A model generated the notes under the pieces. That model saw only the letters and a list, made by a program, of their open reading frames with translations. It had not been told where the DNA came from and made no database searches. Positions 1 through 50,814 of a DNA stretch of 51,561 nucleotides are shown in pieces. The translations under genes and the position numbers were made by a program. The number at the start of each line of letters is the position of its first letter. Position 1 is the stretch's first letter. This DNA is from a virus, in IMG/VR virus record IMGVR_UViG_3300037245_001095, positions 1 to 51,561 of that record; one strand, written 5' to 3'.

Positions 1-225
1 CGTGTTTATTGTTCTGTCACAAAGATAGCAGACTTTAAATTTATTGTATATGAGTTTTCTAAGGCAGGTATCTTAATTGATATTCATACAATTGATTATC
101 ATGTTGATGATTTCAAAGTTTTAGAAGATGAAGTCATGACGAAACTTGAGAATGTTATTGCATTTCTGAAGAGTGACGAGAAAATGAAGCAGGCTTACTT
201 ACATAAATTCAACATGTACAATTGA
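1..225 (+). CDS. C-terminal part of a Cas4/RecB-like PD-(D/E)XK nuclease (5' end outside window)
   Basis: An open frame runs from the first base to TGA at 223-225 and encodes 74 residues with no start inside the window. It reads RVYCSVTKIADFKF followed by IVYEF and an acidic/helical tail, the pattern I associate with the strand and helix after the DxK motif in Cas4/RecB-type phage exonucleases. A gene at the right edge (51140-51561) stops just after its DxK motif, so both are probably parts of one gene. Direct joining of the window ends is out of frame, so some bases must be missing or the ends are not adjacent. Confidence 0.6.
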   Translation, partial: RVYCSVTKIADFKFIVYEFSKAGILIDIHTIDYHVDDFKVLEDEVMTKLENVIAFLKSDEKMKQAYLHKFNMYN

Positions 226-235
226 GGTAACCACA

Positions 236-1843
236 TTGGCAATATCAGAATTACATCTAAACGATTTTAATAAATTGTTTACAGGCAATACATTAAATTA
301 TGGTAGACATACTTACTCTTTTAACAAAGAAGGCGAAAAAGAAAAAGGTGGTAATAGTCTTATTAAAGATAAACATTTGACTATGACGCCATATAAGAGT
401 CACCTTGAAGGTAAAACAGGGCTCGGTATTATACCAATAACAGAAAAAAATGAATGTAAATTTGCAGTAATTGATGTTGATATTTACAATAAAGATTTCA
501 AGCCATACCTGGATGCTATAGAAAATAATAATTTTCCGTTGGTACCTTTCTATAGTAAGTCAGGTGGCTTGCATATCTATCTCTTTTTCAGACAACATGT
601 CAAAGCTAAAGAGGCTATTAAACGAATAACACAAATGTCAAGAATACTTGGCATTACATTACTCGTTAAACAAGTTAAAAATGAAAAAGTAGAAATATAT
701 CCAAAGCAAACAAAACTGGCACCAGGTCAAAAAGGTAGTTGGATAAATATACCATACTTTAATGCAGAGAAAACAAAACAAGGTCTTGCTAAGAATGGTA
801 GTATGTTAAGCTTGGGAGAAGCAATTGTACATATCAAAAATAAACTTACTACAATCGAAGAATTAGATGATTTATTAAAAGATATGCCATATAATGATGC
901 ACCACCATGTTTACAAACATTAAGTTTATTGAATATGCTTGGTGAAAACAATGGTAGAAATAATTATCTATTTTCATTCGGCGTTTATTTAAAAAAGAAA
1001 GATGAAGATTATTTTGAACAAGAAGTAATGATGATAAATGAGCAATTACCTGTACCATTAGAACAGACTGAAATTGAGAGTACAATATTATCATCACTGA
1101 GAAGAAAAGACTATACATACATGTGTACAACAGCACCTTGTGTAGATTTTTGTGATAAAAAAGTATGTCAAAAAAGAGAATATGGCATAGGCAAATCTGG
1201 TGGTTATTTCACTAATTTAATATTTGGTAAAATGACACAATATAATGCAGCCTCACCATACTATGAATGGCAAGTTAAAGGTCAAGATGTTTCTGATTTT
1301 AAATTATTGCGTTTTAAAAATGAAGATGAAATAATAAAGCAAGATGTATTTTTACGTTTATGTTTTAGAGAACTTCATTTTTTACCATTTAAAATGAAAC
1401 AGGTAGAATGGTTTAAGTTAGTTAATCAAGCATTAACTGAATTAGTAGCAGTCAGTGTTGATCATAGTGATGATACTTCACCACTTATGAGATTTCATAA
1501 TTTATTCCTTGACTTCTTGACAACAAGAGCATTAGCCACTACGCGTGATCAAATATTAGGTAAACAAGTATTATTTGATGTAGAGAATGAAAAGTATTAC
1601 TTTAGAAATAAAGATCTTTTAGAATATCTTTATGACTATAAAAACTTTAGACTATTTAGTTCTGCAGAAATACATGGTCTATTGAGAGATATAGGTGTAC
1701 GTAATAAAGTTATAAGGTCTGAAACAAATAAACAGATTCGTGTGGCTGAAGTATTACAAAAAAATATAATATTAGAGAACATGCAAGAAGATAAGGTTTT
1801 TGATGTTGAATTTAAGTCATATGATGACAATGAACAATTTTAA
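236..1843 (+). CDS. Archaeo-eukaryotic-type primase (AEP, TOTE-like primase domain)
   Basis: This 535-residue protein probably makes primers for phage DNA replication. The AEP core is visible: acidic pair D80/D82 in AVIDVDIY, SKSGGLH at 107-113, EIYPKQ at 153-158 and GSWINIPYF at 167-175. This is the pattern of the TOTE-type branch of AEP primases. Cysteines 297, 302, 306 and 311 may bind zinc. The start is TTG, chosen because GAGGT at 224-228 lies 7 bases upstream and the next in-frame ATG would cut into the N-terminal region. It is followed 11 bases later by the helicase gene in the same operon. No DnaG- or T7-type primase is seen elsewhere. Confidence 0.85.
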   Translation: MAISELHLNDFNKLFTGNTLNYGRHTYSFNKEGEKEKGGNSLIKDKHLTMTPYKSHLEGKTGLGIIPITEKNECKFAVIDVDIYNKDFKPYLDAIENNNFPLVPFYSKSGGLHIYLFFRQHVKAKEAIKRITQMSRILGITLLVKQVKNEKVEIYPKQTKLAPGQKGSWINIPYFNAEKTKQGLAKNGSMLSLGEAIVHIKNKLTTIEELDDLLKDMPYNDAPPCLQTLSLLNMLGENNGRNNYLFSFGVYLKKKDEDYFEQEVMMINEQLPVPLEQTEIESTILSSLRRKDYTYMCTTAPCVDFCDKKVCQKREYGIGKSGGYFTNLIFGKMTQYNAASPYYEWQVKGQDVSDFKLLRFKNEDEIIKQDVFLRLCFRELHFLPFKMKQVEWFKLVNQALTELVAVSVDHSDDTSPLMRFHNLFLDFLTTRALATTRDQILGKQVLFDVENEKYYFRNKDLLEYLYDYKNFRLFSSAEIHGLLRDIGVRNKVIRSETNKQIRVAEVLQKNIILENMQEDKVFDVEFKSYDDNEQF

Positions 1844-1854
1844 GAGGTAAAGAT

Positions 1855-3279
1855 ATGCAGCAAAAAGAAATTATTTTTGGAGCTCCTGGTTGTGGAAAGA
1901 CAACTTATTTGATAAATGTATTGAAAGAAGTATTAAAATCATATGCTCCTGAAAGAATCGCTATTGTTTCTTTCACTAAGAAAGGAGCATATGAATTATT
2001 GAACAGAGCATTAGCAGAATTTGATTTGCCAGAAGATGCTTTTCCATATGCCAGAACATTACATTCAATTTGTTTTAGAGCATTAAATATGTCAATTTAT
2101 GACATGCTATCAAAGAATGATTATCGTGATTTTTCAAAGGCAATGAATATGAACTTTGTTGGTTATTATACAGAAGAGTTTTTCCATAATGATGATCGCT
2201 TTTTACATTTATATTTCTTGAAGCAAAATAATTATGACATGTATATAAAAGTACGTGATGCTATGCAAGAGAATATTATTACTTTGAAACATGTTGCACA
2301 TAATTATAAGCGTTATAAAGAACATGCAAAGAAACATGACTTCACAGATATGCTATTAAATACAATAAAAAAAGATATAAATCTTGATATTGATATTGCA
2401 ATTATAGATGAAGCTCAGGACCTTACAACATTGCAATGGGACACGTGCGACGTGCTATTTAAAAATGCCAAAAGAATATATATTGCTGGTGATGATGATC
2501 AAGCAATATATGAATGGACTGGTGCAGATATAACAAGATTCTTGAGTATTGATGGCACCAAAACAATCCTTAATAAAAGTTGGAGATTAAGAAGTAATCT
2601 ATTAACTTTTGCTAAGAAGATAACAAGTAAAATTGATGTTCGAGTTGATAAAGATTTTAAACCTCTTGAAGAGGGCGGTAATATTCATTACTATAATACA
2701 ATAAAAGATTTTAAATTTAATCCAGAAGAAAGTTATTATTGTTTAGCACGTAATAATTATTATTTAAAACGTTATACTACTGAACTCAAAAGACAGACTT
2801 TGATATTTCAACATAAGCATAAATTATCTGCAGACCCAGATATTATTCATGCCATAAACAGTTTCAATGCTTATAAGAAAGGTGAAGCACTCGACAAAGA
2901 TGCTATTAAAGTGCAGAAATATTTAAAAAAAGATGCTAAGCATATTGATAAATTATCTTGGTTTGAGTGCTTTAATTTAAAACCAGATGATATTTTCTAT
3001 TACAGAAAGTTGATTCAAAATAAGGTTGAAATTACCGAACCAAAGATAACAGTCAATACAATACATGGTGTAAAGGGAGGTGAAGCAGATAATGTAATAC
3101 TATTTATGGATGTCACTAAAGTTGTATATCATAATTTATATACATTGAGTGACAGTGAATTAAGATGTCTATATGTCGCATGTACAAGAGCAAAATTTAA
3201 CTTGCATATTATTCATGCCGAGACCAAGTACAGTTACACAGAAATATTTAAGGAGTTGAATAATGAGTATAATCTTTGA
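1855..3279 (+). CDS. Superfamily 1 UvrD/Rep-like DNA helicase
   Basis: The 474-residue protein has the SF1A motif series in order: Walker A at 9-17 (GAPGCGKTT), Walker B DEAQD at 185-189, motif III GDDDQAIY from 212, HGVKGGEAD at 404-412 and a C-terminal YVACTRA motif VI. It is shorter than cellular UvrD, like phage Dda-type helicases. It should unwind DNA for replication or recombination together with the adjacent primase. The ribosome site AAGAGGTAAAGAT just before ATG is of the conserved type used throughout this arm. The end overlaps the next gene by 17 bases. Confidence 0.9.
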   Translation: MQQKEIIFGAPGCGKTTYLINVLKEVLKSYAPERIAIVSFTKKGAYELLNRALAEFDLPEDAFPYARTLHSICFRALNMSIYDMLSKNDYRDFSKAMNMNFVGYYTEEFFHNDDRFLHLYFLKQNNYDMYIKVRDAMQENIITLKHVAHNYKRYKEHAKKHDFTDMLLNTIKKDINLDIDIAIIDEAQDLTTLQWDTCDVLFKNAKRIYIAGDDDQAIYEWTGADITRFLSIDGTKTILNKSWRLRSNLLTFAKKITSKIDVRVDKDFKPLEEGGNIHYYNTIKDFKFNPEESYYCLARNNYYLKRYTTELKRQTLIFQHKHKLSADPDIIHAINSFNAYKKGEALDKDAIKVQKYLKKDAKHIDKLSWFECFNLKPDDIFYYRKLIQNKVEITEPKITVNTIHGVKGGEADNVILFMDVTKVVYHNLYTLSDSELRCLYVACTRAKFNLHIIHAETKYSYTEIFKELNNEYNL

Positions 3280-3730
3280 AGGTGTAGACGGAACAGGAAA
3301 AACAACAAGAGCTAAAGAATTTCCAAGAATATATACAGGTCATTATGATTATATACATAATCATGATAAAACAAGAAAACCTGTTGATATAGAAAGTGAA
3401 GTGACAAAGGAAATGTTACTAATGACATATTGTGATAAGATTTTATTTGATCGCAGTTATATTATATCAGAATATATTTATTCTAAAGTTCTAAGAAGAG
3501 AAACTCCCGTGACACTTGATTATGTCAAAGCTCTTATTGAATTGATAAACTTAAGAAGTCATACAGTTAATTTATTTGTTTTTAAGGACAGAGATAAATT
3601 GATTCTTAAAGATGAAGATAGCAAATTACCGTTCATTGAATTGAATAATGCTTATCTACAATTGTTTGATATTGATGTAAAAGTTGAAAGAATGGCAGTT
3701 GTAATTATTGATGATAGGAGTCCAATATGA
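3263..3730 (+). CDS. Deoxynucleoside monophosphate / thymidylate kinase-like P-loop protein
   Basis: The N-terminus reads IIFEGVDGTGKTT, a typical P-loop of the thymidylate kinase/dNMP kinase family (GVDGTGKTT at 7-15). LFDRSYIISEYIY further on resembles the DR(Y/S) region that contacts the nucleotide. At 155 residues it is shorter than bacterial Tmk (about 210). It overlaps the helicase by 17 bases and the ThyX gene by 4 (ATGA), so the genes are translationally coupled. The exact nucleotide substrate cannot be read from sequence; dTMP is the natural guess beside ThyX. Confidence 0.8.
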   Translation: MSIIFEGVDGTGKTTRAKEFPRIYTGHYDYIHNHDKTRKPVDIESEVTKEMLLMTYCDKILFDRSYIISEYIYSKVLRRETPVTLDYVKALIELINLRSHTVNLFVFKDRDKLILKDEDSKLPFIELNNAYLQLFDIDVKVERMAVVIIDDRSPI

Positions 3731-4326
3731 AAATGATTAAACAATATATTAAAGTAATCACACCAGAAAGTGAATATAAAGTATTCGCCTCGCGTATAGA
3801 GAATATCGCACGGGTCTGTTATCAGTCAGCTGGTAAAGATGTAACATCAAAATTTATTCGTAGCTTAATTAAAAGTGGTCATGAGGCAATGATTGAACAT
3901 AGTAGTTTATCAATTTCATTTATCACTGATCGTGCTACAGCAAATGCTCTTGTAAGACATAGACATTGTTCCTTTGCACAGGAGAGTACACACTATATCA
4001 ATTATGCCAAAAAGTATGGTGATCTTACTTGTATAAGACAAGTAGCAATTGAAGATCAAGAGACTTTTGAATCAATGTTATATGACATTGAAAGTGATTA
4101 TATTAAATTGAGTAACGAAAAGTCAAAAGCTAAAAGAGCTTTATTACCATTAGCCTTTAAGACTGAGTTGGTTATCACAACAAACTTAAGTGAATGGAGA
4201 TCAATCTTGAAACGAAGAACTTCAAAGAAAGCTCATCCTCAAATGCAAGATATTATGCTTAAGGTACTTGATTGGTTTAAACAAGAATTACCAATATTTG
4301 TGGAGGATATAGATGCAGAAAGATAA
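3727..4326 (+). CDS. thyX: Flavin-dependent thymidylate synthase ThyX
   Basis: It makes dTMP from dUMP using FAD and methylene-tetrahydrofolate. The ThyX signature RHRX7S is present as R77-H78-R79 ... S87 (RHRHCSFAQES), followed by a tyrosine-rich stretch. EHSSLSISF at about 58 is the conserved segment that normally precedes it. The length of 199 residues is slightly short for the family. It starts inside the stop of the kinase gene (ATGA) with AGGAG upstream and overlaps the MazG-like gene at its end, forming a nucleotide-supply block. I see no sign of an altered catalytic residue. Confidence 0.93.
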   Translation: MKMIKQYIKVITPESEYKVFASRIENIARVCYQSAGKDVTSKFIRSLIKSGHEAMIEHSSLSISFITDRATANALVRHRHCSFAQESTHYINYAKKYGDLTCIRQVAIEDQETFESMLYDIESDYIKLSNEKSKAKRALLPLAFKTELVITTNLSEWRSILKRRTSKKAHPQMQDIMLKVLDWFKQELPIFVEDIDAER

Positions 4327-4648
4327 CCGCGATGATATTTATGAGCGACTTGAAAAACAGAATGGTCGTAATAATCAAGTCATAAAAGCAATTGAAGAGT
4401 TTGCCGAGTTAATAAAAGAATTAACAAAACAACTTGGCAAAGATACATATACGAGTACTAAAAATATCTGTGAAGAAATAGCTGATGCTCGTGTTTGTCT
4501 TGAACAACTTGAGAGATTCTTTGACCCAAATGGTATTGCAGTTGAAATAGTTATAGACTATAAACTTCGTAGACTTGAGATGTTTTATCTTAAGGCTGAT
4601 GATACTATTGATGATGATGACTTAATTTTCAAGTCGATAGATAAATGA
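4313..4648 (+). CDS. MazG-like nucleotide pyrophosphohydrolase
   Basis: A 111-residue mostly helical protein with the MazG arrangement of acidic metal ligands: EEFAE around 28-32 and EEIAD at 54-58. Family members hydrolyse (d)NTPs to monophosphates; in phages they may adjust nucleotide or alarmone pools. It overlaps thyX by 14 bases with GGAGG upstream of ATG. It is the last gene before the first 68-bp paired-repeat element, so it probably ends a transcription unit. The substrate is not predictable. Confidence 0.75.
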   Translation: MQKDNRDDIYERLEKQNGRNNQVIKAIEEFAELIKELTKQLGKDTYTSTKNICEEIADARVCLEQLERFFDPNGIAVEIVIDYKLRRLEMFYLKADDTIDDDDLIFKSIDK

Positions 4649-4653
4649 TTAAA

Positions 4654-4732
4654 TCGTCAATGACGACCAATGATTAGGTTTTTAGGGGTATATTAGTATA
4701 CCCCATTTATATATACTTTATTCGTCAATGAC
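4654..4732. promoter_or_regulatory. Paired 11-mer/hairpin element, copy 1
   Basis: TCGTCAATGAC occurs at 4654-4664 and 4722-4732, exactly 68 bp apart. Each has a GTCA-A-TGAC dyad, and the first extends to the 13-base palindrome TCGTCAATGACGA. Midway is a perfect 8-bp hairpin, GGGGTATA (4685-4692) with TATACCCC (4697-4704) and loop TTAG. The same architecture recurs at 8503-8581 and 29872-29950. Here it fills the 131-base gap between the MazG-like and zinc-finger genes. The hairpin may terminate transcription, although no run of T follows; the dyads look like operators for a dimeric protein. Confidence 0.75.
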
Positions 4733-4779
4733 TATTGAAGTATCTAATAGATCATTTCAAATATTCCGGAGGAGTGTAA

Positions 4780-5148
4780 ATGGGAACTTTAGTTAAGTAC
4801 TGTGAAACTTGTAATAAACAATTTATGCCTTATCGACCATTTCAAAAATATCATAGTGATAAATGTAGACTTATTGCTCATGAAAAAGAATATCGATATG
4901 TAAGAAAACCAGACGTCACGAGACAATGCAGACAATGTGGTACGGAATTTGTAACAAATAATAAGAAGAAGGTATTTCATAATACAAAATGTCAAAAGGA
5001 ATATCAAATTGAAAATCGAAATAATCTGGAACCTGATGAAAGAACTTGTGCATACTGTGGTGATAAGTTCGAGACAACCCATCATGCCAAAAAATATTGT
5101 CACACAGACTGTTATGATGAAGCCAAGAAAGAGAGGGAAAAGAAATGA
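4780..5148 (+). CDS. Triple zinc-finger protein (three tandem treble-clef-like repeats)
   Basis: The 122-residue protein consists of three copies of one module. Each has a CxxC knuckle and a second H/CxxxC pair about 15 residues later: CETCNKQF...HSDKC, CRQCGTEF...HNTKC and CAYCGDKF...CHTDC. Such modules bind one zinc each and commonly contact nucleic acid. The intervening segments are basic. CCGGAGGAG precedes the ATG, and the gene is the first after the paired-repeat element. No catalytic motif is visible; an HNH nuclease is unlikely because the histidine/asparagine motif is missing. Confidence 0.7.
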   Translation: MGTLVKYCETCNKQFMPYRPFQKYHSDKCRLIAHEKEYRYVRKPDVTRQCRQCGTEFVTNNKKKVFHNTKCQKEYQIENRNNLEPDERTCAYCGDKFETTHHAKKYCHTDCYDEAKKEREKK

Positions 5149-5339
5149 GTGACTACGATATATCTTGGTATAAGTCAATGACAAACATACGTACTGATTT
5201 TGAAAAGAGTCTTTTTGAATATTATCCTGATGCACATTTTAAATTATTATCATGTGGTTTATATGCTAGTGGTATGATAGAAATTGCATGGGAAATGTAC
5301 AAAACAGGTATAAGACATGCAGTAAAGGGAGTGGACTAA
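5145..5339 (+). CDS. Small protein of unknown function
   Basis: 64 residues, overlapping the zinc-finger gene by 4 bases (ATGA) and the next gene by 1 base (TAATG). Rich in aromatic residues with no recognised motif. Tight coupling to both neighbours supports expression. Confidence 0.6.
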   Translation: MSDYDISWYKSMTNIRTDFEKSLFEYYPDAHFKLLSCGLYASGMIEIAWEMYKTGIRHAVKGVD

Positions 5340-5536
5340 TGGCAATTAGTAAAGAGACAATAGATAAATGGAATCGTTATGTTAATGCTTGTGATGAAGA
5401 TGAATTTCGACATAAAATGAATGACTGGGAAAATGAATTTATTGATTCAATACTTGAAGACTTACATTATGACAAAATATTAACTCTGAAACAAGCACAA
5501 AAGTTAGGTCAAATATATCATAAGGTGGTAGAATAA
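5339..5536 (+). CDS. Small protein of unknown function
   Basis: 65 residues starting MAISKETIDKWNRY. I chose ATG at 5339, which overlaps the upstream stop as TAATG and follows AAGGGAG; an earlier in-frame ATG at 5288 lies inside the upstream gene. Helical and acidic, with no family recognised. The stop overlaps the next start. Confidence 0.6.
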   Translation: MAISKETIDKWNRYVNACDEDEFRHKMNDWENEFIDSILEDLHYDKILTLKQAQKLGQIYHKVVE

Positions 5537-5757
5537 TGGAAGATATAAAAGAAGTAATGAAGGCTGGTGTATCTATTTTAATGGATACTATATTAAATCT
5601 TTTACAAAAAGATCCACATGGGTGGAGTGAAAGAGGTTGTTCTACTTGTCAAGCCATATCAAGTATTTCTGGAAGACCTTTTGGTTGTAGTTTATACAGA
5701 TTACAACGAGAAACTCAAAGAAAAAGAGAAGCAGAGAAGGACAAAAACAATGTATGA
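5536..5757 (+). CDS. Small cysteine-containing protein upstream of DNA polymerase
   Basis: 73 residues with a CSTC knuckle near residue 35, a further Cys near 51 and a highly charged C-terminus (RKREAEKDK). It starts directly at the preceding stop with AAGGTGG upstream, and its end overlaps the polymerase start by 8 bases. Function unknown; a zinc site needing a partner is possible. Confidence 0.6.
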   Translation: MEDIKEVMKAGVSILMDTILNLLQKDPHGWSERGCSTCQAISSISGRPFGCSLYRLQRETQRKREAEKDKNNV

Positions 5758-7702
5758 GAAAATGGGTAATATAATATCTCTTGATACAGAGACAAAAGAC
5801 CCGCTATTGACAAATAAGAAGAAGTCATTGCCAAGTGGCCCGGGAGTCTTTAGAAGTACTCCACATGACTATCGTAATGAACATGGTTATCTTCTTGGTG
5901 TATCAATGGGTGATGAACATGGCAATAAATGCTATCTCAATTTAGGACATTACGAAGCAACAAAAGAATTAAGGGATGTCAATGTCAAATATTTAAAAGA
6001 AACCTTGGCACAGGCTGACACGATCATTGGCCAGAATCTGCTATATGATCTTGATTGGTTAGAGAATTGGTTAGGCATTAAGGTCAATGGTACCTTGATT
6101 GATGTTGGTGTTGCTGAAGCTCTGCTTGATGAAAATCAAGGTAAATACAACCTTGACTTCATGGGCATCAAGTATTTTGGTGAAGGCGAAGGCAAAGCAA
6201 AAGATAAAATACAGCAATTTTGTGACGATAATAATCTTAAAGGCGATGTTCGTAAATGGTTATGGAAAATGCCACATTATCTTGTTGAAGAATATGCTAT
6301 AAGAGATATTGAGCTTCCTATGAATATCTGGAAGATACAGGAACCTCTTCTTGAGGCAGAAGATCTAATGCCATTGATGAATCTTGAATGTGATCTATTA
6401 AGAGTACTACTTGTAATGCGAAAGAATGGTGTCAGAATTGATGAAGCCTTACGTAAATCAGCAGCTGATGAACTATATAGTTTAGTTAAAGAGAAACAAA
6501 CTTGGATAGACAAAGAAGTTGGTTTTCCAGTTAAATTCAGAAGTTCTAAACATCTTGCTTTTATATTTGACGAAAATAATATGCCTTATCCGATGACAGA
6601 CCCATCTAAAACTTATCCTTATGGTCAACCATCAGTACCACGTGACCATTTATTAAGATTAGCAAAAGGTCAATTAACTGGTTTTGATGCTGAAAAGATT
6701 ACTGACCCAAGACTATTAGAGATTGGACAATGTTTAGCAGACTTAAAAAGAGCTGATAAAGTTGTGAGTTCATTTGTTGATGGTAGTCTATTAAGATTTC
6801 AAACAGAAGGTAACTTAATTCATTGTAGTTTCTATCCAATGCGAACAGATGAATATGGCACGAGGTCTGGAAGATTTTCAAGTGCGAATCCAAACCTACA
6901 GCAAATACCATCAACTACTGTTGATATGTACTATGGCACATTAACACGTCGGCCATTTGTACCACTTGAAGATCATCTATGGCTTAAACTTGATTATTCA
7001 CAAATTGAATATCGATTCATGGCCCACTTTGCACGTGGCCAGGGAGCAGATGCTGTTAGAGAACAATATAATTTTAATCCAAGAACTGACTATCATAAAA
7101 TGATTGAAGATTTAACAGGATTGAAAAGAAGGTATGCAAAGAATTTAAATTTTGGTGTGGCATATGGGATGGGAGCAAAACATATGGCTGAGTTCTTTCA
7201 ATGGGATTTAGATTATTGTTATGATATACTTCGTATATATCATGCTAATGCACCATTTATTAAGAGTACAATTAAGGCGGTTGAACGAAGAGTGAAAGAT
7301 AAAGGTTATATCAGAACCTTCTTAAAAAGACGGTCACGTCTGATTGATAAGAATAAGGCTTATACAATGTTTTGTCGTTTGACACAAGGTTCAGCCGCAG
7401 ACCTTATGAAGAAAGGTATGTATGAAGTTTACAAAGCTGGAATATTTAATACACTCATACCAAGTTTAACTGTACATGATGAAATTGATTGTTCAATGCC
7501 AATCACAAAAGAAGGTATGGAAGCTGCACGTGAGGCTAAACATATCATGGAAACATGTATTGAATTAAAAGTACCAATCATTGCAGATATGGAGATTGGC
7601 AAAAATTGGGCCAAGTTAACTGCAGTTGATAAAGAATGGATTGGCTTAACAAAAGCCGAAGAAATGGCAGACTTTGAAAAGAAAGTAAAGGAGATTGCAT
7701 AA
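5750..7702 (+). CDS. Family A DNA polymerase with 3'-5' exonuclease domain
   Basis: The 650-residue replicative polymerase carries both activities. Exonuclease motifs: D12/E14 (SLDTETKDP), IIGQNLLYDLDWL and YAIRD. Polymerase motifs: A, D415YSQIEYR; B, K464NLNFGVAYG; C, H576DE. The palm aspartates needed for catalysis (D415, D577) are present. I chose ATG at 5750 (MYEKMGNI); an earlier in-frame ATG at 5618 would add 44 residues lying wholly inside the preceding gene. The stop overlaps the SSB start. It should act with the AEP primase and SSB as the core replisome. Confidence 0.95.
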   Translation: MYEKMGNIISLDTETKDPLLTNKKKSLPSGPGVFRSTPHDYRNEHGYLLGVSMGDEHGNKCYLNLGHYEATKELRDVNVKYLKETLAQADTIIGQNLLYDLDWLENWLGIKVNGTLIDVGVAEALLDENQGKYNLDFMGIKYFGEGEGKAKDKIQQFCDDNNLKGDVRKWLWKMPHYLVEEYAIRDIELPMNIWKIQEPLLEAEDLMPLMNLECDLLRVLLVMRKNGVRIDEALRKSAADELYSLVKEKQTWIDKEVGFPVKFRSSKHLAFIFDENNMPYPMTDPSKTYPYGQPSVPRDHLLRLAKGQLTGFDAEKITDPRLLEIGQCLADLKRADKVVSSFVDGSLLRFQTEGNLIHCSFYPMRTDEYGTRSGRFSSANPNLQQIPSTTVDMYYGTLTRRPFVPLEDHLWLKLDYSQIEYRFMAHFARGQGADAVREQYNFNPRTDYHKMIEDLTGLKRRYAKNLNFGVAYGMGAKHMAEFFQWDLDYCYDILRIYHANAPFIKSTIKAVERRVKDKGYIRTFLKRRSRLIDKNKAYTMFCRLTQGSAADLMKKGMYEVYKAGIFNTLIPSLTVHDEIDCSMPITKEGMEAAREAKHIMETCIELKVPIIADMEIGKNWAKLTAVDKEWIGLTKAEEMADFEKKVKEIA

Positions 7703-8094
7703 TGGCAAGAGATATGAATAGTTTTGCAGCAATAGGTAGATTGACAAGAGATATTGAAGTTAAAATAGCCGGTGGATATACCATTGGTAACTTTTCACTT
7801 GCAAATAATTATATTAAAAAAGGTGAAACAGATGTTAATTTTATCAACTGTGTAATGTTTGGTAAACTCGTAGACAGTATTGGTAAATATATGACAAAAG
7901 GAAAACAACTTGCTATCACTGGTGAACTCCGTCAGAATCGTTATCAAGTTGATGGACAATCAAGAAGTAAATGGGAGATTATTGTGAATACAGTACAGCT
8001 TCTTGGTAACAGTGGTTCTGGTAATGCAACACGTTCAACTGAGCAAGCATTCGAAGCCAATGATGAACAATTTGAGGATGATATACCATTTTGA
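7702..8094 (+). CDS. ssb: Single-stranded DNA-binding protein (OB fold)
   Basis: 130 residues with bacterial SSB features: MNSFAAIGRLTRDIE at the N-terminus, FINCVMFGK, KGKQLAITGELRQNRYQ in the OB fold, and a disordered acidic tail ending DDIPF. That tail is the usual docking peptide for partner proteins. It starts at the polymerase stop (TAATG) with AAAGGAG upstream and overlaps the next gene. It coats ssDNA at the replication fork. Confidence 0.93.
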   Translation: MARDMNSFAAIGRLTRDIEVKIAGGYTIGNFSLANNYIKKGETDVNFINCVMFGKLVDSIGKYMTKGKQLAITGELRQNRYQVDGQSRSKWEIIVNTVQLLGNSGSGNATRSTEQAFEANDEQFEDDIPF

Positions 8095-38825: not shown

Positions 38826-39309
38826 TATAAGGGTATTAAAACCGGAAATATTTGCTGTACCTTCATTCAGTACTGAAATAGCAGTACTTAAACCTTATAA
38901 TCCTGGTGAATTTATGGATATTGATGATGAACCAATAGCAAGATCAGATATTAATGCAGAACATTATCAGATATATAAAATCGTGAATATGATTGATGAT
39001 CTTGAAGCAGAAGAGATATTCTTTGTTATTGTAGACAAAGATATTGAAACATATATTGATAGTCAATTTGAGGCTTTAGAAAGACGAAATATTATAATAC
39101 AAAAGTTGGAGCATGAACTTAGTTGTAGAAAAATTGACTTATCTTTGGCGCAAAAGATAATTGAACTTTATAATGCCTATGGCTTCTGGAAGAATATCAA
39201 GATATGGTTCCATAGAAGAAGAGTCGAGCTTGATCTAAATAAAGTTATTGGAAAACCAACTACTTCACATACTAATTATATGAAACTCATAAATAAGGAA
39301 TTAAAATAA
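38812..39309 (+). CDS. Accessory protein of unknown function
   Basis: 165 residues with acidic first half and basic C-terminal part (KIWFHRRRVELDLNK). AAGGAG precedes ATG. No motif recognised. Its stop overlaps the next start. Confidence 0.55.
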   Translation: MMYIDIRVLKPEIFAVPSFSTEIAVLKPYNPGEFMDIDDEPIARSDINAEHYQIYKIVNMIDDLEAEEIFFVIVDKDIETYIDSQFEALERRNIIIQKLEHELSCRKIDLSLAQKIIELYNAYGFWKNIKIWFHRRRVELDLNKVIGKPTTSHTNYMKLINKELK

Positions 39310-39839
39310 TGGCTAAAGAAATAACAAGAGAAGAGTTGAAACCAACTCTAAGACATTACTGGAGAATGAGAAAGGCTGCTTATAAATGCTTAGTTAATGG
39401 TGATAGTCTTAGTCCAATGAATATGTCTACACTTATTGGTGAGGATTGGTTTGGTAACTATTGCAGCTTATGTATTAAATATTGTAAAGAATCTAAAGCT
39501 CATATATTAAATATACATCAATGTACAGGTTGTCCAATAAAAGAGAATGGCTTTTGTTGCTTAGGCTATGGGTCATTGTGGGGTGCTATGAATCGCTCAG
39601 CTGATTGTCAAGAGTTCATTGGAAGATTAACAATTATGGCCAAAATGATCATGAAGTTACCAAGAGAGAAAATGATATGCCCTGAATGTGACGACATGTT
39701 ACAAGAAGATTGTGAAGTTGATTGTGACTATGATTATGAGTCACCAGAATGTCAAGAACATATGGATAGTGCAGAATGTGAAGATTTAAATGCAACTTGC
39801 GAAACATGTGATGGTGAAGGCGAAATCAATGCAAGATAA
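39309..39839 (+). CDS. Cys-rich zinc-ribbon protein, duplicated gene copy 1
   Basis: 176 residues. A basic N-terminus (MAKEITREELKPTLRHYWRM) is followed by Cys/His clusters (CSLCIKYC, CTGCPIKENGFCC) and a C-terminal pair CPECDD ... CETCDGEG, the last a DnaJ-type CxxCxGxG half-knuckle. Several zinc sites are likely. The first 68 bases are identical to those of the next gene although the rest of the two proteins has diverged strongly. Confidence 0.65.
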   Translation: MAKEITREELKPTLRHYWRMRKAAYKCLVNGDSLSPMNMSTLIGEDWFGNYCSLCIKYCKESKAHILNIHQCTGCPIKENGFCCLGYGSLWGAMNRSADCQEFIGRLTIMAKMIMKLPREKMICPECDDMLQEDCEVDCDYDYESPECQEHMDSAECEDLNATCETCDGEGEINAR

Positions 39840-39851
39840 AGAGGTAAAGAG

Positions 39852-40376
39852 ATGGCTAAAGAAATAACAAGAGAAGAGTTGAAACCAACTCTAAGACATT
39901 ACTGGAGAATGAGAAAGGCAGCCTTCAACTTTATAGATAAATATGATGAAGTTGACCCAGTGCTAATGGCCAATACTATTGGTGAGAGTTGGTATGGAAA
40001 AGATTGCTTCTTATGTCAGAAACATTATAGTAGAGATCTTGAATTACAAGGTGTTAATGATAAGCAATGTTGTAGACATTGCCCATTAAAAGAAAATAGT
40101 TTTTGTTGTCTATATGAATTTTCAATATGGAACATTATGAATGATTCAGATAGTTGGACTGAGCTCATTAGTAGTTTAACAACTATGGCTCGGATCATAA
40201 TGAAGCTACCAAGGGCCCGGGTCACGTGTCCCGACTGCAATGGTCATGGTACTGAACAATGTGGACATCAGTCACATCATATTGAGACAATGTCGAATTG
40301 TGATATATCTGATTGTGAGAATGGTTGGATAACATGTAAGACCTGTAATGGTGAAGGAGCAATCAATGCCAGATAA
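39852..40376 (+). CDS. Cys-rich zinc-ribbon protein, duplicated gene copy 2
   Basis: 174 residues, paralogue of the previous gene with the same first 23 residues and similar Cys layout (CFLCQKHY, CCRHCPLKENSFCC, CPDCNGHG, CKTCNGEG). CPDCNGHG ... CKTCNGEG is close to a complete DnaJ-type zinc centre. AAAGAGGTAAAGAG precedes ATG. Function unknown; RNA, DNA or protein binding is possible. Confidence 0.65.
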   Translation: MAKEITREELKPTLRHYWRMRKAAFNFIDKYDEVDPVLMANTIGESWYGKDCFLCQKHYSRDLELQGVNDKQCCRHCPLKENSFCCLYEFSIWNIMNDSDSWTELISSLTTMARIIMKLPRARVTCPDCNGHGTEQCGHQSHHIETMSNCDISDCENGWITCKTCNGEGAINAR

Positions 40377-45521: not shown

Positions 45522-46292
45522 ATGACTCCAGCTGAAAAGTTCTTTAACGATAATAAATTGACACCAGAACAGAGACAAGTTATGAAGACATTTGAATTGC
45601 ATAAGAAGTATGGAATGGAAGCCCAGAGAATGGACGAAATATTTGGCTCAGTGAGCGGAAGGTTTAATAGTCAGAAACCAAACTTTACTGTTGAACCAAA
45701 GAGTGCATTTGAGCCTAATGATGAAACTTTTAGAGAGCGTTACTCAGGTAAGTTTGATCTTGCTGACATGGAAGCCAGAATCTTTGCACAAATGTCTGCT
45801 ACAGAAAAAGATAGACTTGGTACTTTAAAAGATGAATACTTCAATGATACAGTTCATAGTGCATCTGCACAGACTTGTGCAGAAAATGATGATCATATGA
45901 AGCATAAAGACATAAGAGACTTTTTACATCATTATAGTAACGGACCAAGTACATTTGGTGAAGTTATATACGGACATAAACAGCCATCACCAAAGTTTGC
46001 AGAAGGTGGCAAATTACATATGTCAATGAGTGGCAGAATACACACTAATGAGCCTATTATAAGACCAATAAGAGTAGTCAACCCATTAGGATTAACTCAT
46101 GGTTGCCCATTCTGTGGCACGTGGGATGAAGAGGAGGAACAAGCAATATTAGAAACATTAAATGATGCTAAGACAGCTATAGTAAATTGGAATGTAGTCT
46201 GTAGTTGTGGGGCAATGGGACCTGATGCTGATTCAAGAGAAGAAGCTATCAGTCGATGGAACAATATAGAAGAGGTACGAGATGGAAAGTAA
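45522..46292 (+). CDS. Protein with C-terminal Lar-like zinc domain
   Basis: 256 residues from ATG 45522 (MTPAEKFFNDNKLTPEQ). The C-terminal 60 residues have CPFCG (C195, C198), then VVCSCGAMGPDADSREEAIS and RWN: the pattern of Lar-type restriction-alleviation zinc-finger proteins (with CxC instead of CxxC at the second pair). The N-terminal part is unknown and largely helical. Lar proteins modulate type I restriction; neighbours here also look like counter-defence genes. Confidence 0.65.
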   Translation: MTPAEKFFNDNKLTPEQRQVMKTFELHKKYGMEAQRMDEIFGSVSGRFNSQKPNFTVEPKSAFEPNDETFRERYSGKFDLADMEARIFAQMSATEKDRLGTLKDEYFNDTVHSASAQTCAENDDHMKHKDIRDFLHHYSNGPSTFGEVIYGHKQPSPKFAEGGKLHMSMSGRIHTNEPIIRPIRVVNPLGLTHGCPFCGTWDEEEEQAILETLNDAKTAIVNWNVVCSCGAMGPDADSREEAISRWNNIEEVRDGK

Positions 46293-47439
46293 AGAAGAGA
46301 AAATTGTATTAACAATTAGTAGTGAGTATCTGGGGCACTGGACAGTTTATGATGCTTTAAGAGAGCTGTATCAGAATGCTTTTGATAGGGCTAATGAAGA
46401 TAAAGATGCAAAATGGTATCATCAATTTGATAGAGAATCATCAAGGTCTAAAAAGATGTCGTGGACTATTGGAAATGTAGAAACGACACTTGAACGCAGG
46501 ACACTGGTTCTGGGTGAAACATCAAAGAGAGATGTATCATCTGCAATTGGTAAGTTTGGTGAAGGTTACAAGTTGGCAATACTTGTACTGGTAAGAAATA
46601 ATATTGATGTGCATATTGTAACACAAAAAGAAGTATGGGCATTTAGTCTTGAGTATAATGAACAATTCAAAACTAAAATGTTGACTGTAATAATCACACC
46701 AAATGAATTCAGCAGGGCAAATGATATTGAGTTCAGATTAACAAATGTACCAGTTGGTATCTATAATGGCTATACACAACGTAATTTAAAGTTGCAGAAA
46801 AGTTTAAAATATCAAGAGACTGAGCAATGTCAAGTATTACTTGATAAAAGAAACTGTGGTAAGATATTTGTTGGTAGCTTATTTGTTTGTGATTATCCTG
46901 GTACAGCAACTTATGGCTATAATTTTAGACCTAATGTTTTCCAACTTGGTAGAGATCGTAATATTGTTGATGGCTTTCATGCAAATTATGCAGCATCAGC
47001 TGCAGTTATAAATGCAGCAGTTGATAATGTTGAGATACAGACTAAGATACTTGATAATCTTGATAAAGATGATACTAAATATATTGCGAATTATTCTGCA
47101 GCAGTTGATGCACTTGGTAAAGTATTATGGGAACAGTTCATTGGAACCAATCCTAATAGTATTCCATACTATTACAATCATAAACAAGATGAACTCAAAA
47201 GAAAGTATGTTGGTATACGTACTGTATATATTGAAGAAAGAGTATATGACATTTTGATAAAAACTAAAATGTACAAAGAAGCATTGGCTACTCATGAGCA
47301 AAAAGATCCTCCACCAAGACCTGAGACTGTGGTTAATGAATTTTATGATACTCATTATAAAGAGATGCCTGATAAAGTAAGAGAGGCATACACAAAAGAT
47401 ATCATGCTACCTGCAATGAATTGGCAATTGGAGGATTGA
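46282..47439 (+). CDS. GHKL-family ATPase (Hsp90/MORC-like)
   Basis: 385 residues. N-box DALRELYQNAFD (E28, N32) and the glycine motif IGKFGEGYKLAI (90-100) identify a GHKL (Bergerat) ATP-binding fold. LVLGETSKRD precedes the G motif as in Hsp90-like proteins. The DxGxG aspartate is not seen at the expected place (WTIGNVET), so ATP binding may differ. The C-terminal half is unlike histidine kinases or MutL. It overlaps the Lar-like gene and is followed by a micro-membrane protein and a SNF2 helicase. Function unknown. Confidence 0.75.
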   Translation: MESKEEKIVLTISSEYLGHWTVYDALRELYQNAFDRANEDKDAKWYHQFDRESSRSKKMSWTIGNVETTLERRTLVLGETSKRDVSSAIGKFGEGYKLAILVLVRNNIDVHIVTQKEVWAFSLEYNEQFKTKMLTVIITPNEFSRANDIEFRLTNVPVGIYNGYTQRNLKLQKSLKYQETEQCQVLLDKRNCGKIFVGSLFVCDYPGTATYGYNFRPNVFQLGRDRNIVDGFHANYAASAAVINAAVDNVEIQTKILDNLDKDDTKYIANYSAAVDALGKVLWEQFIGTNPNSIPYYYNHKQDELKRKYVGIRTVYIEERVYDILIKTKMYKEALATHEQKDPPPRPETVVNEFYDTHYKEMPDKVREAYTKDIMLPAMNWQLED

Positions 47440-47525
47440 TGTTTATATTTTGGTTCGTATTAATTGGTCTTGGCCTATCATTATTGATAGGCATAAGAGC
47501 ACATAATAAAGATAAAGAGGAGTGA
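47439..47525 (+). CDS. 28-residue membrane microprotein
   Basis: MFIFWFVLIGLGLSLLIGIR followed by a charged tail AHNKDKEE. One TM helix. It starts at the upstream stop (TGATG) with GGAGG, and its stop overlaps the ribosome site of the helicase gene. Too short for family assignment. Confidence 0.55.
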   Translation: MFIFWFVLIGLGLSLLIGIRAHNKDKEE

Positions 47526-47527
47526 AG

Positions 47528-49183
47528 ATGGATTTTAAAACAAAACCATATGCACATCAATTAGAGGCTTTTGAGAAGTTCAAAGATAAAGAGTTCTTTG
47601 CTCTGTTCATGGATATGGGCACGGGGAAAACAAAAGTTGCTATTGATATTGCAGCACATAAGTATGAGAAAGGTGAGATAGATGCAATGTTAATAATTGC
47701 ACCTAATCATGTGCATACACAATGGATTACTGAACAGTTCATTCTACATTGTCCCGTGCCATACAAGGCTTTTATATGGAAATCAAGTAAACGTGGCACA
47801 CATGGTTATCAATATCAGATGGATAACTTTCTCACGCCAAAGATAGATAAATTAAAAGTCTTTACAGTGAATGTAGAAGCCTTTCAATCAGATACTATAA
47901 TACCAACTATAAGAACTTATGTTAAGCATAATAAAGTATTTACAGTAGTTGATGAATCAACAAGGATTAAGAATCCAAAAGCAAAGAGAACCAAAACGAT
48001 TCATAAACTTGAGAAGTATGGCCAACGTTGTATATTAACAGGGACACCAGCAACAAAATCTCCATTTGGTTTGTGGTCAATGTTTGAGTTCTTAAAAAAA
48101 GGATTTTTTGAATGTAATTATTTCATCTTTCAGGCCCGTCATGGTGTCATGATGAACGGTATCAATCAAAGGACCGGAGGACGATACAGAACCCTTATAG
48201 ATGAAAAGACATGGCATATTGTATTATCACAATTGAAAGAGATACAAGAAATAAGAAATGGTCCTTTAATGTCTGATGACTACTTGGCAGTTGCAGAAGG
48301 AATGGGAGTCTCTGAAAAGAATGTGAGGTTTATTGAGTATCAAAAAGAATTTAAAAAATATAAACGTCTTGATGAAATAAAAGAGAAGATCAGTGCAGTC
48401 ACATTCTATGCTCGTAAAGAAGATTGTCTTGATTTACCAGATAAAGTCTATCAACCAACTTTTGTTGAAATGCATAAAGATCATAGAAAGATTTATAATA
48501 ATTTAAAGAAAACTATGCTCGCTGAATATGCTGGTGAAGAATTGACTGTAACAAACAAGGCTGCATTAACTACAAGACTAATGCAAGTTTGTGGTGGATA
48601 CTTTCCATATACTGAAGAAGTTGATGTAAGTATTGGCGATCAAGTTCGGACCGTAGTAAAGGTCAAGGCAAAGCAGATTGGTTTAAAGAATCAGAAAATT
48701 GAGCGTATAAAAGAAGAGCTTGAAGAATTGAGCTCATTTCCAGTAATTATATGGGCAAGATTTGTTGTTGAATTACAAGCAATATATGCTGCATTGAAGA
48801 AGGATTATAAATGCTGTTTATATTATGGTAAGACTCCAGCACATGAAAGAGCTGATATCATTGAAGATTTTAAAGCTGGTGATTATGATATCTTTATTGG
48901 TAATCCTGCAGTAGCCGGTTTTGGTTTGAATCTACAAAATGCAACAACTCAATTATTTTATTCTAATAGTTATGATGTTGAAGCAAGATTACAAGCTGAA
49001 GATCGATCACATAGACTTGGTGTAAAAGATACTTGTTTATATAAGGATTTTGCATATAAGAATACAATTGATGAAAGAATAGCACGAGCTATTCTGAGTG
49101 GTAAAGCAATGAATGACTTCTTTAGACAGCCATTAGAAGCATTGCTTGATGATGAAGAAAAGGAGGTTAAAGATAATGGATAA
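47528..49183 (+). CDS. SNF2-family (SF2) helicase
   Basis: 551 residues. QLEAFEKF motif Q-like start, Walker A MDMGTGKTKVA (G31-T35), Walker B DEST (142-145), motif III LTGTPAT, motif V-like NPAVAGFGLNLQ and motif VI QAEDRSHR (Q489, R493, R496). SNF2 proteins translocate on dsDNA and remodel protein-DNA complexes or branched DNA. ATG 47528 is preferred over GTG 47522 because of the GAGGAG spacing. Next to GHKL ATPase, Csx16-like and ssDNA-binding-like genes. Confidence 0.9.
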   Translation: MDFKTKPYAHQLEAFEKFKDKEFFALFMDMGTGKTKVAIDIAAHKYEKGEIDAMLIIAPNHVHTQWITEQFILHCPVPYKAFIWKSSKRGTHGYQYQMDNFLTPKIDKLKVFTVNVEAFQSDTIIPTIRTYVKHNKVFTVVDESTRIKNPKAKRTKTIHKLEKYGQRCILTGTPATKSPFGLWSMFEFLKKGFFECNYFIFQARHGVMMNGINQRTGGRYRTLIDEKTWHIVLSQLKEIQEIRNGPLMSDDYLAVAEGMGVSEKNVRFIEYQKEFKKYKRLDEIKEKISAVTFYARKEDCLDLPDKVYQPTFVEMHKDHRKIYNNLKKTMLAEYAGEELTVTNKAALTTRLMQVCGGYFPYTEEVDVSIGDQVRTVVKVKAKQIGLKNQKIERIKEELEELSSFPVIIWARFVVELQAIYAALKKDYKCCLYYGKTPAHERADIIEDFKAGDYDIFIGNPAVAGFGLNLQNATTQLFYSNSYDVEARLQAEDRSHRLGVKDTCLYKDFAYKNTIDERIARAILSGKAMNDFFRQPLEALLDDEEKEVKDNG

Positions 49184-49460
49184 GTTAATTGTGACAAGAC
49201 ATACTGCACTTGTGGCTTATTTAATTGAAAAAGGTTATGTAGATAAAGACACTCCACATATTGCACATGCAGATGTTGAGGATGTAAAAGGTAAGCATGT
49301 CTATGGAATCTTACCAAATTGGTTGGCATGTCATGCTGACAAATTTACAGAGGTACAATTAAGATTGCCAGTTGATAAAAGGGGTGCTGAACTATCATTA
49401 AAAGATGTAAAATTTTATATTGTAGAACCAAAAACATATACCATAAGGAGAGTAATATGA
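49176..49460 (+). CDS. Csx16-like protein; candidate cyclic-oligoadenylate ring nuclease
   Basis: 94 residues from ATG 49176, AAAGGAGG upstream. The family pattern of Csx16 (VVA1548 family) is visible: IVTRHTALVAYL at 5-16, HVYGILPNWLA at 41-51, QLRLPVDKRGAELSL at 61-75 and a final TYTIRRV. Csx16 occurs in type III CRISPR loci, and members have been reported to degrade cyclic oligoadenylates. In a phage without CRISPR genes it would more likely act as an anti-CRISPR. The assignment is by eye. Confidence 0.7.
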   Translation: MDKLIVTRHTALVAYLIEKGYVDKDTPHIAHADVEDVKGKHVYGILPNWLACHADKFTEVQLRLPVDKRGAELSLKDVKFYIVEPKTYTIRRVI

Positions 49461-50017
49461 GTATAGAAAAAGTAGAAGTTCCTGCATTTCTGTTAGACAC
49501 AAATGATGCTGGTGTTGATGAAAATGATATGCAGAATCTTGATGATCTGATTCGTCAATATGATTCAGCAGCTGAAAAAGTTGAGAAGGCTGAACAGATA
49601 TTGAAACTTTATAAAAAAGATTTCAATGAATTGTCTTTGACCCTGATACCACAGTTCTTATTATCGCATGGCATAAGCAAAATGTCATTAGTTGATGGTC
49701 GAGAAGTCACAATTAAAGAAGATATTTCTGCAACTGTGTCTGATGAACCAGCTTTTAGAAAATGGTTAAGAGACCGAAAAGAAGAGGCTATCATCAAAGT
49801 TAAATATATCTTTGGCCAAATGAAAGATAATGAAATGACAAAATTGACTGATTTCTTATTTACTGGTGATTATGAATTTGAAATTGATGAAAGTATCCAT
49901 GCACAAACCAAAAAGAAATATTTCAAAGGTCTGATCGCAGAAATTGGCCGAGATAATTTACCAGAGTTTGTGGGTATTTATGATATTCGCAAAACTATTA
50001 TCAAAATTAAAAAATAA
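49457..50017 (+). CDS. Conserved phage protein with coiled coil, unknown function
   Basis: 186 residues. A coiled coil at about 25-60 is followed by LVDGREVTIKEDISATVSDE and AFRKWLRDRKEEAIIKVKY. This architecture (coiled coil, then a DG-x-KV strand and an AFxWLR helix) is common in phage replication-region proteins of unknown function. AAGGAG precedes the ATG, which overlaps the Csx16-like stop. Followed by a hairpin. Confidence 0.65.
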   Translation: MSIEKVEVPAFLLDTNDAGVDENDMQNLDDLIRQYDSAAEKVEKAEQILKLYKKDFNELSLTLIPQFLLSHGISKMSLVDGREVTIKEDISATVSDEPAFRKWLRDRKEEAIIKVKYIFGQMKDNEMTKLTDFLFTGDYEFEIDESIHAQTKKKYFKGLIAEIGRDNLPEFVGIYDIRKTIIKIKK

Positions 50018-50079: not shown

Positions 50080-50814
50080 ATGGCTGAAGCAAAAAAAGAG
50101 CAGATGGATTTTATTGAGGAGGGCATAGATAAGCTTGAAGGATTTGAAGATGTAAATGCCAAAACAATGGCAATTCCATTTATTAAATTGGCACAAGACC
50201 TTACCAATGAAACAAAGAAACAAAAAGATGTATATATTGAAGGTCTTGAAACAGGAATGTTTTTCAATGCAGGTACTCAGGAAATACTTGGTGATAATTT
50301 TGATATGATTATCCTTAAGTTTGAAAGAGTATATATTGAATGGAAGCCAGACCGGGGTGGTTTTGTATCTTATCATACACCAGAGAATGCAGAAAGACTC
50401 GCAACAAATAAATTAAAATTTGGTCACTGGAAAAATGATGTTGGTAATGAGTTTAATGAATATTACACTTATTATGGCCTAATGGCTGGCAGAGAGGAAG
50501 AAGGTTTAATTATTTTTTCAATGGCCTCAACAAATATTAAGACTGCAAAAGTCTTAAACAAAGTTATGACAACACACAAAATGCCTAATGGTAAAATTGC
50601 ATTACCATATTATCTGATATGGAATGTCAAAACTGCGAATGCCGAAAAGAATGGTCAAGATTGGTTTGCCCCAAAGTTTAGGTTCAAGGACTATATCAAT
50701 GAGCAGCAGTATAACATTATTATCGGTGAACGCAAAGCATTACCAGATAAGCGTGTAGATTATGCTCTTCTTGAAGATCGCACTGAATCACAATATAGTG
50801 ATGATGATCTTTAA
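50080..50814 (+). CDS. Conserved phage ssDNA-binding-like protein
   Basis: 244 residues beginning MAEAKKEQMDFIEEG after AAAGGAGCC. Segments AIPFIKLAQ, YIEGLETGMFFNAGTQEI and YIEWKPDRGGF match a phage protein family encoded near recombination genes. The acidic C-terminus (QYSDDDL) resembles the partner-docking tails of ssDNA-binding proteins. A role in coating or annealing DNA during recombination is my inference. Confidence 0.6.
   Translation: MAEAKKEQMDFIEEGIDKLEGFEDVNAKTMAIPFIKLAQDLTNETKKQKDVYIEGLETGMFFNAGTQEILGDNFDMIILKFERVYIEWKPDRGGFVSYHTPENAERLATNKLKFGHWKNDVGNEFNEYYTYYGLMAGREEEGLIIFSMASTNIKTAKVLNKVMTTHKMPNGKIALPYYLIWNVKTANAEKNGQDWFAPKFRFKDYINEQQYNIIIGERKALPDKRVDYALLEDRTESQYSDDDL

Follow-up and report, generated by a model that had tools for sequence, protein, structure and literature searches.

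GHKL proteins are usually identified by a DxGxG motif (the G1 motif) and assumed to use ATP, and mutating the Asp of this motif abolishes ATP binding in Hsp90. Among the described members, Hsp90, HtpG and TRAP1 are closest in predicted fold to the protein studied here. Prokaryotic MORC proteins pair with SWI2/SNF2 or other superfamily II (SFII) helicases and with nucleases in restriction-type loci (Iyer 2008, PMC2292703). The rIIA protein of phage T4, with a GHKL domain at its N-terminus and a C-terminus that varies, is counted among counter-defence proteins (PMC7824862), and the rIIAB proteins of divergent phages overcome RexAB (PMC11879866). Here, we analysed a GHKL protein of 385 residues encoded at positions 46282-47439 of a stretch of viral DNA of 51,561 nucleotides, IMG/VR record IMGVR_UViG_3300037245_001095, referred to as the window. 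An earlier sequence-only reading had joined this gene with the two that follow it, encoding a 28-residue membrane protein and a SNF2 translocase, in one operon and had proposed that the three products form a DNA-remodelling or anti-defence system.

Predicted fold and nucleotide site of the GHKL protein

The GHKL protein belongs to PHROG 6077, which it matches over its full length (residues 7-372 against positions 3-355 of 366, E 4.7e-64). It and all 43 aligned relatives matched this family, to which PHROG 8203 is related. PHROG 6077 is already contained in PHROGs, where it carries no assigned function, and no description of the family or of the residue loss reported below was found among the papers searched. 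Relatives were found by tblastn in at least 112 phage records, each at less than 60% identity, and 149 stretches carrying the family were obtained from viral contigs. The query for the latter scan was a six-sequence GHKL alignment, a nine-sequence alignment being too divergent; with the single GHKL protein as query the viral contigs gave no match. A further 32 loci lie in bacterial genomes, mostly of Pseudomonas, Bacilli and Clostridia, and many of these resemble prophages as judged by their neighbours. Most relatives are annotated as hypothetical, and a Pfam scan of the window protein matched no GHKL model.

The AlphaFold model of the protein, built with 44 sequences, reached a predicted local distance difference test (pLDDT) of 92.6 and a predicted template modelling score (pTM) of 0.84. 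The top VIA-align matches of this model were the N-terminal plus middle domains of Hsp90 and TRAP1 (Z about 12-13, over residues ~9-283 or more and up to ~290 residues), nearly tied with the ATPase regions of topoisomerase II, topoisomerase VI-B and gyrase (Z about 11.5-12). Alignment by hhalign with E. coli HtpG gave P 95.9 and E 6e-9, and the match of a MORC4 profile was weak (E 0.08). The GHKL fold named by the sequence-only reading was borne out by the model with its structural matches and by the HtpG profile, and the product of 46282-47439 is, as modelled, a real Hsp90-type GHKL protein with a transducer domain. With Hsp90, HtpG and TRAP1 it shares the N-terminal and middle domain fold, the Glu and Asn of the N-box and a GxFG loop. 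It differs from them in its small and dissimilar C-terminal region, in belonging to a family carried by phages and prophages, where recombination genes are frequent neighbours, and in lacking DxGxG, with HtpG Asp80 replaced by Asn65.

The N-box of the GHKL protein reads R27-E28-L-Y-Q-N32, and its further motifs are L-G78-E-T-S-K82, G90-K-F-G93-E-G95-Y-K97 and P217..L222-G-R224-D225-R226. Residues E28, Q31, N32, D35, G78, K82, G90, G93, E94, G95, K97, R224, D225 and R226 were invariant in 44/44 sequences. The catalytic Glu and Mg-binding Asn of the N-box and the GxxGxG of the G2 motif (G90-x-x-G93-E-G95) were all present in 44/44, a conservation that is partly a selection effect, as the relatives had been gathered by N-box and GxxGEGY loop patterns, one matching pattern sufficing per locus. 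The divergent member from Shewanella phage 1/40 (locus L010) has GRHGIG in place of the GxxGEGYK loop. The Arg-Asp-Arg loop (R224-D225-R226), a candidate counterpart of the catalytic Arg of Hsp90, was placed by hhalign at the VRG322 loop of HtpG, not at SRE336.

The same alignment paired Glu28 with HtpG Glu34 and Asn65 with HtpG Asp80, so that the position of the adenine-reading Asp is occupied by Asn65, as it is in the independent alignment with MORC4. Across the 44 sequences this position holds Asn in 24, Ser in 19 and Thr in one. No DxGxG motif was found in any of the 44 aligned sequences or in any of nine members (0/44 and 0/9). Since G1 had played no part in collecting the relatives, its loss is not a selection effect. 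The "atypical DxGxG site" of the sequence-only reading was therefore wrong, and because the motif is absent the protein is a variant and not a canonical GHKL ATPase. The unusual point of the family is, judging from the aligned sequences, the loss of the adenine-reading Asp throughout with retention of the catalytic residues. Loss of DxGxG may explain the missing Pfam match and the hypothetical labels of most relatives.

What the altered site means can be read in several ways. The disappearance of DxGxG from all 44 members, together with the effect of the Asp mutation in Hsp90, would suit a pseudo-ATPase in which nucleotide binding disappeared along with the G1 Asp and whose role is that of a scaffold or of a decoy for host proteins. 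However, the invariance of the catalytic Glu, the Mg-binding Asn, the GxxGEG loop and the Lys in the aligned set is not easily accounted for unless phosphate and Mg binding is under selection, and we regard this explanation as distinctly improbable. Alternatively, PHROG 6077 may have given up canonical adenine recognition and kept catalysis. A recombination or counter-defence clamp would then be gated by a different nucleotide, such as GTP, one that is modified or particular to phages, or one used as a defence signal; we consider such a switch unlikely. More generally, a large phage family that retains the catalytic residues and lacks this Asp would represent either a novel nucleotide specificity or a novel mode of ATP recognition.

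Neighbourhoods of the family and a possible clamp function

The explanation that we favour, tentatively and as a possibility that falls short of probable, is that the GHKL protein is a homodimeric clamp or chaperone, gated by a nucleoside triphosphate, that serves the early DNA metabolism of the phage. In such a protein, the phosphate and Mg site formed by the invariant Glu28 and Asn32 and the GxxGEG loop would close an N-terminal gate, and the transducer domain with its invariant Arg-Asp-Arg loop would relay this closure to the small C-terminal alpha/beta region, which would hold a client. Recognition of the base would be non-canonical, the adenine-reading Asp being replaced throughout the family. 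Likely clients would be proteins encoded by neighbouring genes, namely exonuclease VIII, RecT/Sak-type annealing proteins, Gp157/Gam, gp34-like proteins and sometimes SNF2. In the lineage of the window, a one-helix peptide made from the next start codon may tether the GHKL protein to the membrane or regulate it there, and the SNF2 helicase would be a neighbour in the same operon and no fixed partner.

Gene neighbourhoods in independent phages and prophages are consistent with this picture. The neighbouring families include exonuclease VIII (phrog_412), other exonucleases, RecT, Sak4, SSB and RusA, and further Mu-Gam/Gp157, primase, topoisomerase II, gp34, HNH nucleases, methyltransferases and a HerA/FtsK-like ATPase. 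In a cluster of Pseudomonas prophages, the GHKL gene is followed by an exonuclease-family gene and then by a Gp157/Gam-like gene, with start-stop overlaps; in locus L019, the gene after GHKL is gp34-like, a type also found in the window operon. The GHKL gene adjoins phage recombination or replication genes more often than it adjoins SNF2, which supports the clamp but does not prove it.

Several points weigh against the clamp. The neighbours of the GHKL gene are diverse, and recombination genes are common in the early regions of phage genomes in general. Some members occupy accessory-looking sites; in Vibrio phage D93, for example, the gene lies between those for PagP and GroES. Outside the window lineage, the excess of small transmembrane peptides behind the GHKL gene is small (2/59 other clusters at the strict setting). 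Finally, loss of the Asp could mean that no nucleotide is bound at all, but the catalytic residues, being conserved, speak against this.

Two further readings of these neighbourhoods did not gain support. The 245-residue protein encoded after GHKL in Pseudomonas prophages could be a Rad52-like annealing protein, although PHROGs assigns it to an exonuclease family. Bacterial defence islands were rejected as a setting for the family, since the PADLOC matches among the neighbours were to helicases of generic type, to HerA-like ATPases and to methyltransferases, in apparent prophages. In three Lachnospiraceae loci (L101:9115-10653, L106 and L112), GHKL is closely followed by a gene for a HerA/FtsK-like ATPase.

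The window operon and its SNF2 helicase

The GHKL gene and its surroundings in the window comprise the following features.

45522-46292, plus strand: protein with a C-terminal Lar-like zinc domain (phrog_599, 7.9e-7; TIGR03655, 2.2e-8, below the curated cut-off)
46282-47439, plus strand: GHKL protein with S5-like transducer, Hsp90-type by its predicted fold, 385 residues (PHROG 6077, E 4.7e-64)
47439-47525, plus strand: predicted single-helix membrane microprotein, 28 residues, MFIFWFVLIGLGLSLLIGIRAHNKDKEE (hydrophobic stretch; positional counterparts in loci L014 and L097)
47528-49183, plus strand: SNF2-family SFII helicase/translocase, 551 residues (PF00176, 2.4e-20; PF00271, 1.2e-15; phrog_62, 5.2e-111)
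49176-49460, plus strand: Csx16 (cas_VVA1548) ring-nuclease family protein, 94 residues (PF09652, 1.2e-15, 57.9 bits against a cut-off of 25)
49457-50017, plus strand: Pam3 gp33-like protein (DUF7307; profile matches)
50080-50814, plus strand: Pam3 gp34-like protein (profile matches)

The three consecutive same-strand open reading frames (ORFs) at 46282-49183 are real. The stop codon of the GHKL gene and the start codon of the microprotein share one base (TGATG), and the ATG of SNF2 lies 2 bases beyond the microprotein stop, with an in-frame alternative start, GTG, at 47522. Shine-Dalgarno-like sequences precede the microprotein start (GGAGGA) and the SNF2 start (GAGGAG). The sequence-only reading had taken the three genes to be translationally coupled, but overlaps are not peculiar to them: Lar-like and GHKL genes, SNF2 and Csx16, and Csx16 and the gp33-like gene overlap as well, and the tight packing spans at least six genes. 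Because the same packing extends on both sides, the three-gene boundary is arbitrary, and GHKL, microprotein and SNF2 are a slice of a longer overlapping operon of early type. A simple promoter and terminator scan showed no operon boundary, all signals lying within about two standard deviations of shuffled sequences.

The third gene is an ordinary phage SNF2 helicase. Its product has SNF2_N and Helicase_C domains and belongs to PHROG 62, annotated as "DNA helicase", so that its identification as SNF2 held up; helicases of this type were found in 423 phage records at E <1e-20. Among 49 viral records with GHKL, SNF2 was present in 22 and was not found in 27, many of the latter being fragments. 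In the 21 non-duplicate records with both genes, GHKL and SNF2 lie at most 2 kb apart in four, against 2.65 expected from uniform placement, and a dedicated GHKL-SNF2 module was rejected on this distance test. Three loci outside the test (L077, L119 and L097) likewise have SNF2 near GHKL. None of eight annotated phage loci had a helicase annotated directly beside GHKL.

Close relatives of the window do share its arrangement. The order GHKL, transmembrane peptide, zero to two genes, SNF2, zero to two genes, Csx16 occurs in the window, in L014/L015, the closest viral relative, and in L097, a contig binned as Mycoplasmatota, and L012 has GHKL, three genes, SNF2 and Csx16. What lies between GHKL and SNF2 varies: two small genes besides the transmembrane peptide in L014, two genes in L097, and three in L012 including an HD-domain gene. 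Identity to the window proteins in these relatives is 55-67% for SNF2 and 26-43% for GHKL. The HD-domain protein of L012 (4364-4999) matches PF01966 at 8e-8.

The proposal that a MORC-like GHKL protein, a transmembrane anchor and a SNF2 translocase constitute one DNA-remodelling or anti-defence system draws on this shared gene order and on a precedent that the sequence-only reading had correctly named, the GHKL and helicase pairs of bacterial restriction-type defence loci (PMC2292703). Like the operons of MORC or paraMORC proteins with SFII helicases, the window has a GHKL plus S5-type module near a SWI2/SNF2 helicase. Unlike in those operons, adjacency to the helicase is not conserved in the family, and the G1 motif is lost. 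Nor was a nuclease or methylase partner recognised among the window genes scanned, several small neighbours being unannotated, whereas MORC operons include nucleases; some prophage members of the GHKL family have methyltransferase or HNH neighbours. The inserted genes vary even among close relatives, and divergence is much more rapid in GHKL than in SNF2. The two genes are usually apart in relatives, an outcome that the sequence-only reading had itself named as refuting it, and SNF2 was not found in more than half of the viral records with GHKL, many of them fragments. A conserved three-gene system is thus not supported, and we consider a joint machine of these three products very improbable. 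That GHKL and SNF2 share an operon here reflects synteny within the lineage.

The microprotein and a possible counter-defence setting

The 28-residue microprotein MFIFWFVLIGLGLSLLIGIRAHNKDKEE contains one strongly hydrophobic stretch and had no family match in Pfam and PHROG scans. In L014/L015 (GHKL identity 43%), a hydrophobic ORF of 27 residues begins 3 bases past the GHKL stop, and in L097 (GHKL identity 42%), one of 30 residues begins in an ATGA overlap with GHKL. Since two related phages have such ORFs at the corresponding position, the 28-residue ORF is unlikely to be a chance occurrence, and its earlier description as a membrane protein is plausible, the hydrophobic stretch suggesting a one-helix peptide. 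L012 has a hydrophobic ORF of 31 residues, but upstream of GHKL. Over the whole family, a small transmembrane ORF follows GHKL in 5/62 clusters compared with 1.6% after other genes (Fisher P 0.01), and with ORFs limited to 45 residues or fewer the count was 4/62 against a background of 0.5% (P 0.003). Three of these clusters belong to one lineage. The microprotein is hence chiefly a lineage trait, and its candidacy as a general partner of the GHKL family was rejected.

Genes with possible counter-defence roles adjoin the operon slice on both sides, as the sequence-only reading had noticed: a Lar-like (restriction alleviation) domain is encoded upstream and a Csx16 ring-nuclease family protein downstream. 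This setting bears on a further explanation, in which the GHKL protein would, as T4 rIIA does together with rIIB, protect the infection from membrane-acting or abortive defence, with the transmembrane microprotein tying it to the membrane in this lineage. T4 rIIA is itself a GHKL protein with a presumed counter-defence role, and rIIAB proteins of divergent phages defeat RexAB, as cited above. One GHKL relative is annotated as "RIIA lysis inhibitor", three related phages have a transmembrane peptide coupled to GHKL, and the Lar-like and Csx16 genes flank the GHKL block. T4 rIIA also resembles the window protein in being a phage-encoded and poorly understood GHKL protein with a GGFG-type loop.

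The two proteins differ, however, in several respects. T4 rIIA has 725 residues, a canonical DFGPG motif where PHROG 6077 has none, and rIIB as partner, and its sequence relation to the window protein is weak (hhalign P 28, E 6e-4, 73 columns). No match to T4 rIIA was found in the window, and no rIIB sequence match was found in 23/24 GHKL-family records, many of them fragments and rIIB being a fast-diverging protein. Shewanella phage 1/40 carries an rIIAB locus in addition to its divergent GHKL member, and therefore this member is not simply the rIIA of that phage. The poor profile match and this coexistence weaken the view that the family is merely divergent rIIA, and an rIIA-like counter-defence role, the chief rival of the clamp, appears rather unlikely to us.

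The Csx16 gene at 49176-49460 is, by analogy, likely an anti-type-III-CRISPR gene. A representative Csx16 degrades cA4, and among 28,114 phage genomes only two were reported to carry a member of the family (PMC12409355), a rarity that makes its presence in this phage a further lead. In L012, L014 and L097 the gene likewise comes after SNF2, either immediately or with one or two small genes in between, at 57-65% identity. An AlphaFold model of Csx16 from a four-sequence alignment had no significant fold match. In L097 (positions 1-8080), a block of GHKL, transmembrane peptide, SNF2, Csx16 and gp33 has 42-67% identity to the window, and its Mycoplasmatota bin is a possible clue to the host of the window's phage lineage. 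Elsewhere in the window, at 39309-40376, two adjoining genes encode cysteine-rich proteins whose first ~24 residues are identical (MAKEITREELKPTLRHYWRMRKAA), an arrangement suggestive of tandem duplication.

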